A stretch of 64,000 bases of DNA, from the NCBI RefSeq assembly GCF_019468465.1, contig NZ_CP080519.1:3363001-3427000 (forward strand), read 5' to 3'. The DNA is from Amycolatopsis sp. DSM 110486. GTDB taxonomy: Bacteria > Actinomycetota > Actinomycetes > Mycobacteriales > Pseudonocardiaceae. The translations under genes and the position numbers were made by a program. Every line of letters begins with the position of its first letter. The stretch's first letter is position 1. The notes beneath the pieces were generated by a model, which worked only from the letters and a program-made list of their open reading frames with translations, searched no databases and was not told the DNA's origin. Shown one piece after another: positions 50,684-56,755 of this stretch.

Positions 50684-52912
50684 TCAGTACCCGCGGTACG
50701 CCCCACCGTGCGCCATCGCCGCGATACCGGGCACGTTGCCCATCGACCCGTACCGGTCGAGCGAGTACCGCACCCCGGCGATGATGTTGTCGACCGGGTT
50801 GTAGATGTTGTCGTGCCCCGGCAGCTTGTGCGCCTGGAACGTCGAGTCGATGCACTGCATCAGGCCCTTGGACGGGTGCCCGGCGGCCGCGTTGGAGTTC
50901 CCGGTGAGGAACACGTGGTCGCCCTCGCGCGCGGTCCAGGTGCCGAGCTCGGTCGTCACGCACCAGACGTCGGCGCGCCCGGCCGGCTCACGGTGCAGGA
51001 ACGCCCCGGTGACCACCGGGTTGTTCGCCCGCACGGCAGCCTCGCGGCGCCACGTCTCATGCTCACCCGTGCGATCGGTGACCGACACACGCGGCCGAGC
51101 GCCGGAGAGGTAGACGGCCAGCGTGATCGCCTCGAGCACCTCGCCCGGCGCCTGGTAGATCGTGACCTTCGGCTTGGTGTACCCGGGGCGCAGGTGCCGC
51201 GTGCCCTCCGCGTCGGTCACGGCCTCCAGCCACGCTTCACGCTGCGCGGTCGACATCGCCAGAACCTGTCGCACAGCCTCGGACTTCGGATTTCCCGCGC
51301 GGTGCAACAGGTCCTGCGCGTAGTCGTAGTCGATCCGGAACTGGTGCCGGGGTCCGCAGCCACCGCGGTCGTCGACGTACACCGCGTGCGGCACGCCGTC
51401 GAGCAGCTCATGCAGCTTCGCCACCATGTCCTTTTTGGACTGTACGATCGAGATCGTCGGCCGGTGGCGGCGCGTCTCGACGTGGCCGTCACCCGCGATC
51501 CAGCCGAGGATCGCCGCCTCGCGCACCGTCACGTCGAGCGCCGAGTCCGTGTCGGCGGGTGCCGCGAGCAGGATCCGGTCACGACTGCCGACCTCGTCGG
51601 TCGTCACGAAGCGAGCTTCGTCGGCGTGGACGTTGCGCTGCGCTGCCGCGACCACACCGTGGATCTTGCTGCGGTGCACAGCCACCCCGTTCGCGGGCGC
51701 GGTGCTCGCGCGCGGTTCCCACCCGCATTCCGGGCAGACAACCAGACCGTCGTTGGCGACCGCGACCCGCGGCAGGTTCAGCCAGCGGTGGTTCGGCGTG
51801 GTGGTCGCCGCCCAGCGCGAGTTGGCCAGGGTGACGAGCGACGCGTTCTCGTGGTGGACCACGCGCGTGACACGGGTCCACTCGCTGCGCCGGGTCTGCG
51901 GGTTGTAGCCGATGGTCTCGTCGCCGACCTCGACGTCGTGGTGCTTCAGCAGCCCACGCCGCGTGAGGATGGCCGTGTCCAGCGGCACGCAGTCCCAGTT
52001 GTTGATCGCGTTGGGGTTACCGCCCGATTCGTGCTGGATGATCGCCCAGATGTTCTTGACGTCGGCTTCCGTGACGTTCACGCCGTTGGCCTGAAGGATC
52101 TTGATGGCCTCGTCGATCCACTCCTGCACGTTGCCCGGAGGCGGGGACCCGGGCGGGCCGCCACTGGGGCCGAGGCCGCCGCCCCCACCGCCACCGCCGC
52201 CTCCTCCGCCGCCCCCACCGCCGTGGTGGGAGGGGGTGTGGAGGCCGCCGGTGCTCTGGGGGACGGTGCCGTCCTTGCCGGGCAGGGGGACCTTGTCGTA
52301 ACCGCCCTCGATCTGGGTTTTCATGAGGGTCTGCGACTGGCCGATCATGGTGTTGGCCTGGGTCAGCAGTCCCTGCACTTCGCCGTCGTACTGCGTCGTC
52401 AGGTTGTTGATGTCCGTCTTCGCCGTCGCCTTGATCTGCTCGACGGTCGGGCTCGGTCCGGGCTTCTTCTCGTCTGCCGCGGTCTTGGCCGCGGCTGCCG
52501 CGGCGTTCATGTCCGTCTGGGCCTTCTGGTTGCGGGCGTTGACCGCCTTCTCCGCATCCCCGAGCTTGCCCTGAGTGACCTTGGACTTGATGTCGGCGAG
52601 GTTCTTCGCCAGGTTCGTCAGGTCGGTCGCCACGTCGCCGAGGTGGGCCTCGACCTTGGCGCCCGCGCTGCGGACGGTGCGGACGTAGTCGAAGAAACTG
52701 TCGGCCGCGCCGCCGGACCAGACGCTGCTGTCGAGCGCCTTCGTGGTGTTGTCCAGTGCCTGCGAGTGGTCGGCCGCGTCGGTGGCGGCGCCGCGGAACT
52801 GATCGGCCGCCTTGTTGATGGCGTCCACGTTGAGTTTGGCGACTTGGTCTACCTTGTCCGTGAACGCTTTCCAATTGTCCGGAGTCCCGGCACCGACCCC
52901 ATCCAAAGCCAC
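50684..52912 (-). CDS. Type VII secretion muralytic protein: WXG100-like domain + SLT transglycosylase, interrupted by an intein
   Basis: A 742-codon gene from a GTG (GGGGGAG 7 nt upstream). Residues about 1-110 form a WXG100-like helical hairpin with SSVWSGGAADSFFDY; about 110-230 are helical and Ala/Lys-rich; a run of 16 Gly (four different Gly codons) leads to a SLT/lysozyme-like domain. That domain's catalytic Glu is in IIQHESGGNPNAINNWD. An intein follows directly (residues 308-672), after which SNAAAGHPSKGLMQCIDSTF completes the fold. The mature protein would have 377 residues. Probably an exported peptidoglycan hydrolase of the ESX-like cluster upstream. Confidence 0.92.
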   Translation of the reverse strand: MALDGVGAGTPDNWKAFTDKVDQVAKLNVDAINKAADQFRGAATDAADHSQALDNTTKALDSSVWSGGAADSFFDYVRTVRSAGAKVEAHLGDVATDLTNLAKNLADIKSKVTQGKLGDAEKAVNARNQKAQTDMNAAAAAAKTAADEKKPGPSPTVEQIKATAKTDINNLTTQYDGEVQGLLTQANTMIGQSQTLMKTQIEGGYDKVPLPGKDGTVPQSTGGLHTPSHHGGGGGGGGGGGGGGGGLGPSGGPPGSPPPGNVQEWIDEAIKILQANGVNVTEADVKNIWAIIQHESGGNPNAINNWDCVPLDTAILTRRGLLKHHDVEVGDETIGYNPQTRRSEWTRVTRVVHHENASLVTLANSRWAATTTPNHRWLNLPRVAVANDGLVVCPECGWEPRASTAPANGVAVHRSKIHGVVAAAQRNVHADEARFVTTDEVGSRDRILLAAPADTDSALDVTVREAAILGWIAGDGHVETRRHRPTISIVQSKKDMVAKLHELLDGVPHAVYVDDRGGCGPRHQFRIDYDYAQDLLHRAGNPKSEAVRQVLAMSTAQREAWLEAVTDAEGTRHLRPGYTKPKVTIYQAPGEVLEAITLAVYLSGARPRVSVTDRTGEHETWRREAAVRANNPVVTGAFLHREPAGRADVWCVTTELGTWTAREGDHVFLTGNSNAAAGHPSKGLMQCIDSTFQAHKLPGHDNIYNPVDNIIAGVRYSLDRYGSMGNVPGIAAMAHGGAYRGY
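50897..51991 (-). mobile_element. LAGLIDADG-type intein (365 aa) in the SLT domain
   Basis: Block A starts at Cys (CVPLDTAILTRRGLLKHHD), block B is TTTPNHRW, block F is DVWCVTTELGTWTA and block G is HVFLTGN followed by Ser +1. The penultimate His is Gly, as in some active inteins. Between them are two LAGLIDADG-like helices (AILGWIAGDGHVE; AWLEAVTDAEGTR) of a homing endonuclease and a CxxC-x16-HxxxxH zinc-finger-like insertion (CPECGWE...HRSKIH). Removing it joins INNWD to SNAAAGHPSKG, an uninterrupted SLT motif. Confidence 0.92.
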
Positions 52913-53426: not shown

Positions 53427-54185
53427 TCACAAACCCGCCTGCAGCTCGTGCACCCGCTCCACAAGCACCGCGTTGTCCGCCGGCGTGACCGTGGCCCACG
53501 TGTGGCCGTCGGAGTCGTCGGTGAGCTGGAAGAGGTAGCGGCCCGCGTCGGTGTCGAAGAAGGCCGTGGGGTGGGGCGAGCGGCGGATAGTGCCGTCGCG
53601 GAGGGTGCGTTCGGCGGTGAACTGGCCGCGGGCTTCCTGGCCGAGCAGCATGCCGGCGAGCTCCTGGGCTTCCCACAGGGCGAGGCCGTGGTCCTCCAGC
53701 ACCGTGACCAGGGCTTTCGGGTCGCCGCCGGCTTTGGTGTCGGCGGCGACCAGGGTCGCGTGGGGCACGGACACGCTCTGGCCGACGCCTGCGGACAGCT
53801 CCCCGGCGACGGGCACGGCGGCTTCGGCCAGCGCGCCCTCGTCGGCGGGGATGAGCCAGACCTCGTCGCGGTCGACGACGGCGAGCACGGCCTGGCTGCC
53901 GCGGCTGACGGCGCGCCCGTGGATCTCGCGGTCGGCCCAGACCCAGACGTCGAGGGCGTACTGCGGGCGTGACAGCAGGTGCAGCTGGTCGAACAGCTCG
54001 CCCGACGCGCGGCGCCCGCGCGCGAGGCGGCGGCGCGAAAGTCCCTCCCATACCTGTTCGATCAACGCAGCGCGTTCGGAATGGGTGCGGCCCGGTGAGG
54101 GCACGCCGAGCGCGGCCGGGCGGCGGCCCAGCTCGAGCGACTCCCACAGGACGTCGAACTCGAGCGTCGAGAGGACGAGGTTCAC
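53427..54185 (-). CDS. ESX secretion-associated protein, EspG family
   Basis: A 252-residue EspG-like protein. LSTLEFDVLWESLELGRRP at the N-terminus and the LFDQLHLLSRPQYALDVWVW block near 65 are typical of the family, which in mycobacteria binds PPE proteins in the cytoplasm before export. GTG start overlaps the stop of the PPE-like gene (GTGA), matching a chaperone-client pair. Confidence 0.82.
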   Translation of the reverse strand: MNLVLSTLEFDVLWESLELGRRPAALGVPSPGRTHSERAALIEQVWEGLSRRRLARGRRASGELFDQLHLLSRPQYALDVWVWADREIHGRAVSRGSQAVLAVVDRDEVWLIPADEGALAEAAVPVAGELSAGVGQSVSVPHATLVAADTKAGGDPKALVTVLEDHGLALWEAQELAGMLLGQEARGQFTAERTLRDGTIRRSPHPTAFFDTDAGRYLFQLTDDSDGHTWATVTPADNAVLVERVHELQAGL

Positions 54186-55765
54186 GCGTCGTCGCCGATC
54201 ACGTCGTCGGAGACCAGGCGGGGGTCGGTGAAGAGGTCCTTGTCGTCGACGCCGAAGCGGCGCACGTGGTCCGCGTCGTCCTCGTTCTGCGTGGCCGCGG
54301 GGGCGAGGAACTTCGCGTCGCCCGAGGGCTGCTTGGGCTCGATCTGCTCGGTCTTGCGGAGCGCGATCGCCTCTTCCTCCGGCAACTCCACCGGAAGCGG
54401 ACGCACGGGGCCCTTCGATGGTGCACCACCGAAACCCCGGCCCTGCCGTTCGCGATCGCCGGCCAGCGCACCGCCGGCCACGCCCGCGCCGAGCGCCGCG
54501 GCACCCGCGCCGAGCTCACCGGCCGACGCACCCGGCCGCGGCGGCGCGGCGGGACCGCCGACGCTCTCCTCCGGCACGACGGGTGACTGCGGACCACTGC
54601 CGACCATCCGGCCCCGGCTCAACGCCGGGTCGCCACCACCGGTCCCGCCGCCAGTCCCGCCGGCCGGACCGCGGCCGAGCACAGCGTCAGGCCCGGTCGA
54701 CGAACCACCCGGCGCAGCACCACCAGAACCAGCACCACCGCCAAAACCAGGGCCGGCACCAGGCCGGCCCTCGAAACCAGCACCGAAACCGGGCCCACCA
54801 CCCCGAACCGGCCCACCGAACCCGGGCCGTCCAGGCGCCTCCGGCTGACCGCCACCCCGCGGCATTTCCCAACCAGGCGGAGGCGGTGGCGTCGAAGGCC
54901 GGCCAGAGACGGGCCGAGAAACAGGCCGACCGGGAGCCGAAGCCGGCGCTGTGTACCCAGCCGACCCACCCGATCCTCCCGAACCGGCCGACCCACCAGC
55001 GCGCGGCGGCACCGCGATCCCGTACGCCGGCGTCGGCGGATCCACCGCCACCCGGTTCGCCATGGGCTGCACCACCGACGGATCCACGTGCCGCGACTGC
55101 ACCGACGCCGAAGCCGGCCGCACGCCACCGTCCGGCGTCACGTCGACCGCCGAACCCGCCAGGTCGAGCACGCTTTTGCGCCCGTCCGGCTGCGTCATCG
55201 ACAGCGACTGCGGCTGGCTCAACGGCTCCGACGACAGCAGGTTCTCGCCGCTCTGCTGCGCGTACGCGTTCAACGCCTCGAGCGCCTGGCTTCGTGCGTT
55301 CTGCGCGGTGTCGACCGCCGTCGCGTGGTCGGTCTCGAAGCCGATGAGGCTCAGCACGGAGTCGCCGAGCGTGTAGCCGCCGGCGCCCTTCATCAGGGTG
55401 GCGGGGTCGGGCAGCTTGAACTTGGTGCGGTTGAAGGCCTCGCCCTGGGCGAAGAGCAGCTCGGCGGTGTTCGACACCTTCCGCATGGCGTCCTGGGAGA
55501 ACCCGGCCTGGTCGGTGAACACCTGCCCGGCCGCACCGCCCGCCTGGCTCTGCCACTCGACGCCGAGCTGCGTCAGCTGCGTGCGCAGCGCCTGGTCGGT
55601 CTCGGCGAGCGCGGTCGCGACGGCCTTCAGCGCGTCCACGGCCGTGCCGATGCTGCCGATGCCGTCGCCGTCGGAGAACTTCCGGATCTCGTCCGCGAGG
55701 GACGTGTCCGTCCACCCGTCGAAGCGCTGGTCGCGGATCTTGCCCGCGAGGTCGGAGATCTCCAC
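54182..55765 (-). CDS. PPE/WXG100-like type VII secretion substrate with Pro/Gly-rich C-terminus
   Basis: A 527-residue protein starting at a GTG with AGGAGG 5 nt upstream. Residues about 1-180 are helical with VEWQSQAGGAAGQVF near 75 (WxG/WxS position). About 220-440 is low-complexity Pro/Gly/Ala (FGGPVRGGGPGFGAGF-type repeats). A conserved acidic tail ends ADHVRRFGVDDKDLFTDPRLV. It probably depends on the coupled EspG gene for export. The region just upstream in frame belongs to the DUF3558 gene. Confidence 0.82.
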   Translation of the reverse strand: MEISDLAGKIRDQRFDGWTDTSLADEIRKFSDGDGIGSIGTAVDALKAVATALAETDQALRTQLTQLGVEWQSQAGGAAGQVFTDQAGFSQDAMRKVSNTAELLFAQGEAFNRTKFKLPDPATLMKGAGGYTLGDSVLSLIGFETDHATAVDTAQNARSQALEALNAYAQQSGENLLSSEPLSQPQSLSMTQPDGRKSVLDLAGSAVDVTPDGGVRPASASVQSRHVDPSVVQPMANRVAVDPPTPAYGIAVPPRAGGSAGSGGSGGSAGYTAPASAPGRPVSRPVSGRPSTPPPPPGWEMPRGGGQPEAPGRPGFGGPVRGGGPGFGAGFEGRPGAGPGFGGGAGSGGAAPGGSSTGPDAVLGRGPAGGTGGGTGGGDPALSRGRMVGSGPQSPVVPEESVGGPAAPPRPGASAGELGAGAAALGAGVAGGALAGDRERQGRGFGGAPSKGPVRPLPVELPEEEAIALRKTEQIEPKQPSGDAKFLAPAATQNEDDADHVRRFGVDDKDLFTDPRLVSDDVIGDDA

Positions 55766-55773
55766 GCGCCCTC

Positions 55774-56388
55774 CTAGGTCCGTGTCTTGAGGTACTGCAG
55801 CGCGAGGTCGGCCGCCTGCGTCGCCTGATCGCACAGCTGCTGCTGGGTGAACGCGCCGGCGGTGACCGCAAACGCTTGCGCCGCCAGCGTCTGGCCCTTC
55901 GCGACGCCGACGAGCGCCTCGCAGTCCGACGGCGTGCCGGCCGCGCGGTAGTTCGTGAGCGCCGGGTAGCCCTCGACCGCGAACGGCGCCGTGGTCATGC
56001 TGTTCTTCCGCCGCGCGCCGGTGAGCCACTCCTGCAGGTCGGCGGTGACGGTGCGCAGGTGGTACGCGTGGAACGGCTCGGTCTTGTCCGCGTCGAACAC
56101 GCACGTGGGGCCGTCCTGCGGATCCGCGGCCTTGCGCGGCACGGCGTTGACCTGCAGCTCGTCGAGCTGCGCCTGGCCCAGCAGGTCGCACGGGTCCACG
56201 CCGGTGAGCGAGAGGTCGGCCGGGCGCGACGGCAACTGGGAAGCCTTCGCTGCCTGCGAAGCCGAGCTCACCGCGGTCTGCACCGGCACAGCCGTGCCGG
56301 CATCGCCGGACGAACACCCGGCCACGCCGAGCGCGAGCACCGCGGCCGCGCTGAAAGACAGAGCGCTAGTGGATGCCGTGCGCACCAC
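55774..56388 (-). CDS. DUF3558 family lipoprotein
   Basis: A 204-residue lipoprotein; GTG 56388 or the next codon GTG starts VVRTASTSALSFSAAAVLAL and the lipobox is LGVAGC. The DUF3558 domain shows VDPCDLL, CVFDADK and SDCEALVGVA, with four Cys that could form two disulfides. The gene overlaps the preceding WXG100-like gene by 23 bp. DUF3558 genes beside PPE/EspG genes are common in Pseudonocardiales; function unknown. Confidence 0.82.
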   Translation of the reverse strand: MVRTASTSALSFSAAAVLALGVAGCSSGDAGTAVPVQTAVSSASQAAKASQLPSRPADLSLTGVDPCDLLGQAQLDELQVNAVPRKAADPQDGPTCVFDADKTEPFHAYHLRTVTADLQEWLTGARRKNSMTTAPFAVEGYPALTNYRAAGTPSDCEALVGVAKGQTLAAQAFAVTAGAFTQQQLCDQATQAADLALQYLKTRT

Positions 56389-56755
56389 GGTCCCCGAACG
56401 CCGCGGCCTTGTCGTCCTCGCTCGCCTGGTACGTCTGCGCCGCGCCCCGCAGCTGTTCGCCGAGGCGGCGCAGGTTGGCGACGTACGCCCGCGCTTCGGC
56501 CGCGTAGGAGTGATCACCTTCCGCGACGATCATGTTCCACGCCGCCACGGAGTTCACGCTCACCGCGTCGGCCGAGGGCGTGTCGATGCGCAGCTCGCCC
56601 AGGCGGGTGAGCAGCTTGTCCTCGAGCGCGTTGGCCTGCTCGTCGACGGCCTTCGCCACGTCCAGCAGTTTCTCCGGCGCCACGATGAGGTCCGCGACGC
56701 CGGGCGCGGCCGGGACGGACGACGCCAAGTCGGACAGCGGACTGCTTCCCGCCAT
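56366..56755 (-). CDS. PE/WXG100-like small type VII secretion protein
   Basis: A 129-residue helical-hairpin protein. NSVAAWNMIVAEGDH marks the turn region and the C-terminal helix ends with AAQTYQASEDDKA, which contains YxxxE, the form of the type VII export signal. It is the first gene of the cluster PE-like, DUF3558, PPE-like, EspG. A heterodimer with the PPE-like protein is likely by analogy. Confidence 0.7.
   Translation of the reverse strand: MAGSSPLSDLASSVPAAPGVADLIVAPEKLLDVAKAVDEQANALEDKLLTRLGELRIDTPSADAVSVNSVAAWNMIVAEGDHSYAAEARAYVANLRRLGEQLRGAAQTYQASEDDKAAAFGDRGAHGIH

Follow-up and report, generated by a model that had tools for sequence, protein, structure and literature searches.

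Results

An intein within the SLT domain of a WXG100 protein

In a 64,000-nucleotide stretch of the Amycolatopsis sp. DSM 110486 genome (contig NZ_CP080519.1, positions 3,363,001 to 3,427,000; hereafter the window, whose coordinates are used throughout), a gene with a GTG start at 50684..52912 (stop included) on the minus strand encodes a 742-residue WXG100-SLT protein precursor whose SLT domain is split by a 365-residue intein; all parts described below lie on the same strand. The N-extein (residues 1-307; 51992..52912) comprises a WXG100 domain (residues 26-107), a linker that includes a Gly-rich run, and the first part of the SLT domain, including Glu295 of the HESGG motif (52028..52030), the expected catalytic Glu of the SLT family. 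The intein (residues 308-672; 50897..51991) extends from Cys1 (block A:1; 51989..51991), separated by 12 residues from the Glu of HESGG, to Asn365, and is followed at an LTGN|S junction by the C-extein (residues 673-742; 50687..50896), which starts with Ser+1 and contains the remaining SLT domain with its SKGLMQ motif. Within the intein lie block B, TPNHRW, with Thr B:7, His B:10 and Trp B:12 (51782..51799); a C2H2-like finger, CPEC...HRSKIH (51659..51736), which presumably binds zinc; two LAGLIDADG-type stretches, the first with its catalytic Asp in IAGDG (51398..51520) and the second, WLEAVTDAEGT, recognised by eye and by alignment (51200..51232); and blocks F and G, DVWCVTTELGTWTAREGDHVFLTGN (50897..50971), with Cys F:4, Thr G:5, Gly G:6 and Asn G:7. 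The penultimate residue is Gly, at a position where His is usual. The original prediction, which had proposed an intein of 365 residues with Cys1, block B, two LAGLIDADG stretches and an LTGN|S end, was exact in its placement at 50897-51991.

Pfam matched the precursor above the cut-offs for WXG100 (PF06013, 36.2 bits against 27.3), SLT (PF01464, 41.5 against 21.3, in two stretches) and LAGLIDADG_3 (PF14528, 24.5 against 22.5, the first stretch only); for the WXG100 domain, however, TIGR03930 gave 35.8 bits, under its cut-off of 44.85. A search of the precursor against NCBIfam returned no intein model at E≤1. Because the NCBIfam intein models miss this intein, its carriers bear names such as transglycosylase SLT domain protein, WXG100 family target or hypothetical protein. 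The intein N-terminus profile TIGR01445 likewise misses it in the window's own genome, although it matches two other loci there, at C1:5126356-5126586 (-) and C1:6532663-6532884 (+), in frames of 1167 and 642 residues.

Empty orthologues and distribution

Orthologues were sought in 35 genomes of the same genus in addition to the window's own. The insert was found, whole or shortened, in eight of the 35; in 26, residues 1-307 (or nearly so) and 673-742 lie in adjacent pieces without the intein, and in the last (G011) the C-terminal part of the gene alone was present. The junction DNA of 30 loci, the window's included, was filled in nine and empty in 21 at the same codon boundary, which is the comparison with intein-free homologues that had been proposed as a check. 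Since same-genus orthologues lack exactly these codons, the 365 residues are an insert, and the idea that they form a normal domain of the family is ruled out by orthologues that are complete without them.

Of 80 genomes of the genus, 20 matched the intein, as did 26 of 390 in the family; among 396 genomes sampled evenly across the phylum there were two matches, namely the window's own and one at 33% identity over partial length. Named carriers among 13 loci include Amycolatopsis pretoriensis, A. orientalis, A. taiwanensis, A. sacchari and Qaidamihabitans albus. A search of plasmids for the intein gave no match at E 1e-5.

Related inteins and their insertion sites

A search for relatives gave 161 proteins at E≤0.001, 120 of which were listed; from these and the window protein we kept 87 rows that show both junctions with five or more flanking residues and dropped the remaining 34. 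Residue 1 is Cys in 85 of the 87 rows and Ser in two; His B:10, Trp B:12 and Cys F:4 are present in all, Thr G:5 and Gly G:6 in 86 each, and the terminal Asn in 85. Cys1 and the whole Trp-Cys-Thr triplet occur together in 84 rows. The endonuclease Asp pair is intact in 74 and the Cys-Cys-His-His set of the finger in 69. By a pattern rule of our own, 67 of the 87 inteins occupy the same SLT site as that of the window (site a), seven occupy a second SLT site, GLMQ|T (site b), and 13 lie elsewhere.

Several listed proteins are of separate interest. P0053 (988 residues) has two block F/G ends, LTGN|TFAAY and LTGN|SRYGI, and possibly contains two inteins. P0061 and P0062 bear site-a inteins in DUF4226-domain proteins, P0061 also giving sub-threshold EspA/EspE and SLT matches; these two proteins may represent a second family of type VII-type hosts. 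P0051, from a 17.9-kb contig of the bacterial assembly of Streptomyces albicerus (L196, NZ_VWMY01000127.1), is a tape-measure-like protein carrying the intein; the beginning of P0051 has matches to terminase families as well, and the contig is perhaps a prophage.

Signs of function and predicted fold

All 26 carrier genomes of the family yielded readable loci, and in every one the eight key positions read CTHWCTGN and are followed by Ser+1; both endonuclease Asp residues are kept in 25 and all four finger ligands in 21. Over seven pairs of our choosing, dN/dS (the ratio of nonsynonymous to synonymous divergence) was 0.095-0.188 for the splicing part and 0.168-0.226 for the middle part. An AlphaFold model of 385 residues, built with 50 sequences, has the intein/endonuclease (Hint) fold with a predicted local distance difference test score (pLDDT) of 90.9 and a predicted template modelling score (pTM) of 0.87, and Foldseek together with VIA-align grouped it with TliVMA, PI-SceI and PI-PfuI across nearly the full length. 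Searched against solved structures, the sequence itself yielded little, the match being a bacterial intein-like domain (E 1.6); with the alignment, most matches were to WXG100 and coiled-coil structures, and a single one was to a mini-intein (E 0.045). Taken together, the intein looks functional, and both protein splicing and DNA cutting may be expected of it.

Four carriers of the genus have shortened inteins, of 343 (L055, G001), 328 (L056, G029), 279 (L057, G096) and 251 residues (L058, G081), which are natural mini-inteins of the same family; their splice residues are all kept, and in the shortest the endonuclease Asp pair is unaligned.

Phage relatives

Scanning the viral contigs of IMG/VR with the intein alignment gave 49 loci. 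The first residue is Cys in 48 of them and the key positions read CTHWCTGN in 33, counts to be taken with the reservation that one row (L109) is misaligned, several are partial and the assignment of B:12 is uncertain in distant rows. By their junctions, 15 of the 49 lie in cell-wall hydrolase motifs: two at SLT site a, one shifted from it by two residues, three at SLT site b, four at NxE|SGW, of which three look identical, and five at GAYGIPQ|S. In phage frames of 1437-1481 residues (L034-L036 and L076-L078) the intein follows directly after the Glu of NxE|SGW or after the GAYGIPQ of a comparable motif; the group favours cell-wall hydrolase motifs. The remaining loci, judged by eye, lie in genes resembling those for DNA polymerases, methylases and other proteins.

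Six phage open reading frames (L071-L076) were scanned with PHROGs, and all matched families of the tail length tape measure protein; the top match of L075 was a family labelled endolysin, and L076 matched weakly. A distant relative of the intein is found in the tape measure gene of the Gordonia phages Twinkle and Mcklovin. In L071, 20 bases spanning the junction, AACAACTGGGAC|TCCAACGC, are identical to those of the window.

One further viral contig (L037) encodes, in a 994-residue frame that by eye resembles a phage portal protein, a class 3-looking intein without Cys1 (QHRW, VRCIT, PTCN|S), whose finger, CPECGWEP...HRARTH, closely resembles that of the window; this likeness suggests that the finger module may be common to different intein classes.

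Phylogeny

In a FastTree phylogeny of 76 inteins (at least 310 residues, chosen sites) rooted on Twinkle, the window intein falls in a clade of 44 rows (support 0.95) that holds no tape-measure rows: 39 belong to WXG100 proteins by precomputed Pfam assignments, four are unlabelled, and the last is the window. This clade adjoins L071 and lies amid tape-measure inteins. The site-b inteins of three WXG100 proteins cluster with phage L074 and others (seven rows, support 0.97), and this separate grouping suggests that WXG100 proteins were entered more than once.

Trees of the 20 carrier genomes of the genus had eight well-supported splits for the intein and ten for the N-extein, with ten conflicting pairs between them; the placement of two long rows (G081 and G100) in this comparison is unsure. 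The closest pair, the window's genome and G028, agrees in both trees. G009 and G035, whose exteins are 99.3% and 100% identical, differ by the entire intein. Such a patchy and incongruent distribution fits a mobile element.

Intein identity exceeds N-extein identity in 299 of 325 pairs. We had considered this excess as proof of transfer and dropped it, because the N-extein evolves fast and synonymous divergence disagrees.

Cys1 combined with the class 3 triplet

The window intein has Cys1, the mark of class 1, together with Trp B:12, Cys F:4 and Thr G:5, the triplet of class 3 inteins, in which the +1 residue is nearly always Ser or Thr (PMC5222942). Passages in PMC5050341 and PMC3196547 describe class 3 inteins as being without an N-terminal nucleophile, and the 1701 class 3 inteins of PMC7891396 were chosen by the stated absence of Cys1, whereas an N-terminal nucleophile is described as merely unneeded in PMC5222942. 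Having Cys1, the window intein falls outside class 3 where that class is, as usual, defined by the lack of an N-terminal Cys or Ser.

Block trees of 75 chosen inteins in three groups, with no outgroup, put ten class 1 inteins on one side and our family together with eight class 3 DnaB inteins on the other (bootstrap 100); with the diagnostic columns removed, the same split had a bootstrap of 78 and an SH-like approximate likelihood ratio (SH-aLRT) of 53, the root being unplaced for want of an outgroup. When profiles were scored with the diagnostic residues masked, the family profile gave class 3 inteins a median of 18.9 bits and class 1 inteins 14.1, with overlapping ranges; the class 3 profile gave the family 9.4 bits and class 1 0.7; and the class 1 profile gave the family 20.7 bits and class 3 16.0. 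By these scores, the ranges of which overlap, the family appears to lie between class 1 and class 3, as an intermediate would.

Neighbourhood of the precursor gene

Also on the minus strand are an EspG-family gene (53430..54185; PF14011, 220.5 bits), an open frame with weak PPE similarity whose start is probably further in (54185..56317; PF00823, 19.9 bits, under the cut-off of 26) and a DUF3558 gene (55777..56517; PF12079, 107.2 bits). A 103-residue frame adjoining the precursor gene had no Pfam match. The window's genome has three EccC genes above the curated cut-off, and the WXG100 domain, the EspG neighbour and these three genes together make type VII export of the SLT protein likely.

Discussion

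We consider it very probable that this is a homing intein which passed into the SLT genes of hosts from the tape measure genes of phages and is still spreading. This reading draws on the exact insertion, the empty sites, the intact motifs, the predicted fold, the site common to phage and host, and the tree conflict, all of which were observed. The original proposal of a homing-endonuclease intein in a WXG100-SLT protein is borne out by the empty orthologues, motifs, predicted fold and phylogeny; its suggestion of a phage tape-measure origin is supported for the intein but not for the host gene, which is intein-free in 26 of the 35 sampled genomes of the genus.

In the mechanism that we propose, a 742-residue precursor would be made in which the intein parts the segment with the catalytic Glu from the GLMQ segment. 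The intein would then excise itself, presumably in the cytoplasm and ahead of export, and the halves would be joined at Ser+1 to give a hydrolase of 377 residues. The LAGLIDADG endonuclease, perhaps helped by the C2H2-like finger, would make its cut at the NNWD|SNA codons of an SLT allele that lacks the intein, and repair of the cut allele would copy the intein in. Passage from phage to host, followed by continued movement among hosts, would be possible because tape measure proteins and type VII SLT proteins have an active-site motif in common, in one case with 20 identical bases.

Several points weigh against this scenario. Splicing and cutting are deduced from sequence features and the predicted fold. 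The direction from phage to host is likewise an interpretation, because the forks listed at a support of at least 0.9 do not include the one uniting L071 with the host clade, and the root is a chosen outgroup. Median identities are 0.80 for the C-extein, 0.70 for the intein and 0.52 for the N-extein, and identity alone is no proof. Between the window's genome and G009, the synonymous divergence of the intein (0.565) falls between that of the N-extein (0.654) and that of the C-extein (0.304), and thus no recent transfer between these two is seen. In addition, genomes with the intein do not cluster on the N-extein tree (a count as low arose in 146 of 500 shuffles), and this count cannot separate gain from loss.

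The last two points, together with the congruence of the closest pair and the shortening of four of the 20 genus inteins as in decay, would also suit an old, vertically inherited intein whose patchiness reflects many precise losses and little homing. We regard that history as unlikely, because losses alone account neither for the ten conflicting, well-supported pairs of splits nor for the retention of both endonuclease Asp residues in 25 of 26 loci. Slightly less probable still is a regulatory switch, in which redox- or zinc-responsive splicing of the SLT protein would make hydrolase activity or export conditional. The two active-site Cys residues, A:1 and F:4, could form a pair or hold a metal, and zinc bound to its catalytic Cys blocks the M. 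smegmatis DnaB intein, a class 3 intein (PMC7360933) that is an oxidative stress sensor according to the title of PMC6195587; against this, 60 of 80 genus genomes have no intein match, 26 of the 35 sampled have an intein-free gene, and the distribution appears selfish. No evidence of conditional splicing, which the original proposal had also raised, was met, though no test was aimed at it.

With regard to splicing chemistry, we give about even chances to a chemically ordinary class 1 phage intein, in which Cys1 does the work and the three triplet residues do not play their class 3 roles. Cys1 is nearly invariant, Cys is the second commonest F:4 residue overall (PMC4031507), the known class 1 inteins with a Cys at F:4 form a polyphyletic set (PMC3196547), Trp is found at B:12 in class 1 too (PMC7891396), and the Bethlehem recombination directionality factor (RDF) intein, treated as class 1, splices fully with a penultimate Gly (PMC5050341). 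In the RDF-type intein of phage LilBib, Val occupies B:12, and Cys1, Cys F:4, Thr G:5 and Gly G:6 are all present. However, the near-perfect conservation of the triplet across the 87 rows is above expectation for incidental residues, and the masked family profile ranks class 3 DnaB inteins over class 1, albeit with overlapping ranges. A more tentative proposal, which we think possible though rather doubtful, is that this large phage group with Cys1 and the full class 3 triplet represents natural two-nucleophile inteins, in which either Cys can start the reaction, and living relatives of the phage intein that lost Cys1 to give class 3; through the hydrolase active site common to tape measures and type VII proteins, they would have crossed into the chromosomes of hosts repeatedly, with SLT site a and SLT site b as at least two separate entries. 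The occurrence of the combination in many phage inteins suggests that it may be a living intermediate between the classes, a matter that the trees do not settle.

The origin of class 3 inteins is disputed. In one study, grafting the triplet onto a class 1 intein led mainly to cleavage, and a separate evolutionary path was favoured (PMC7664689); an extant family with Cys1 plus the triplet makes a stepwise route to class 3 testable by a few point mutants. A common active-site motif is, moreover, a concrete way for a phage element to enter a bacterial secreted enzyme. In a literature search of titles and abstracts, with subscription journals mostly outside its reach, we found no SLT or type VII protein described as containing an intein, and nothing on the sharing of an SLT site by phage and host, on movement of the intein or on Cys1 together with the triplet; the terms 'tape measure' and 'transglycosylase' occur nowhere in PMC9957025, and the former nowhere in PMC5050341. 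To the original prediction, the present analysis adds the insertion site that tape measures of phages have in common with SLT proteins of hosts, signs that the intein is still moving, and the combination of Cys1 with the triplet.

Among known systems, TliVMA, PI-SceI and PI-PfuI are likewise LAGLIDADG homing inteins, to which the window intein is 11-18% identical in these alignments; it departs from them in its penultimate Gly and perhaps in the C2H2-like finger between block B and the endonuclease. From class 3 inteins, such as the mycobacterial DnaB and AceL NrdHF inteins, it differs by Cys1, and the eight class 3 DnaB inteins compared have a penultimate His where it has Gly. The class 1-type intein of the Mycobacterium phage LilBib, in a metallophosphoesterase/RDF gene, shares not only the residues given above but also Ser+1; unlike the window intein, it has Val at B:12 and a different host gene, and it clusters with other phage inteins, apart from the SLT group. 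The Twinkle tape-measure intein belongs to the same family as that of the window but occupies a different site, TNADH|SDHVHW, and ends in TSN. The tape-measure inteins of L071 and L072 are of the same family and sit at the identical SLT codon boundary, but their host protein is a phage tape measure.
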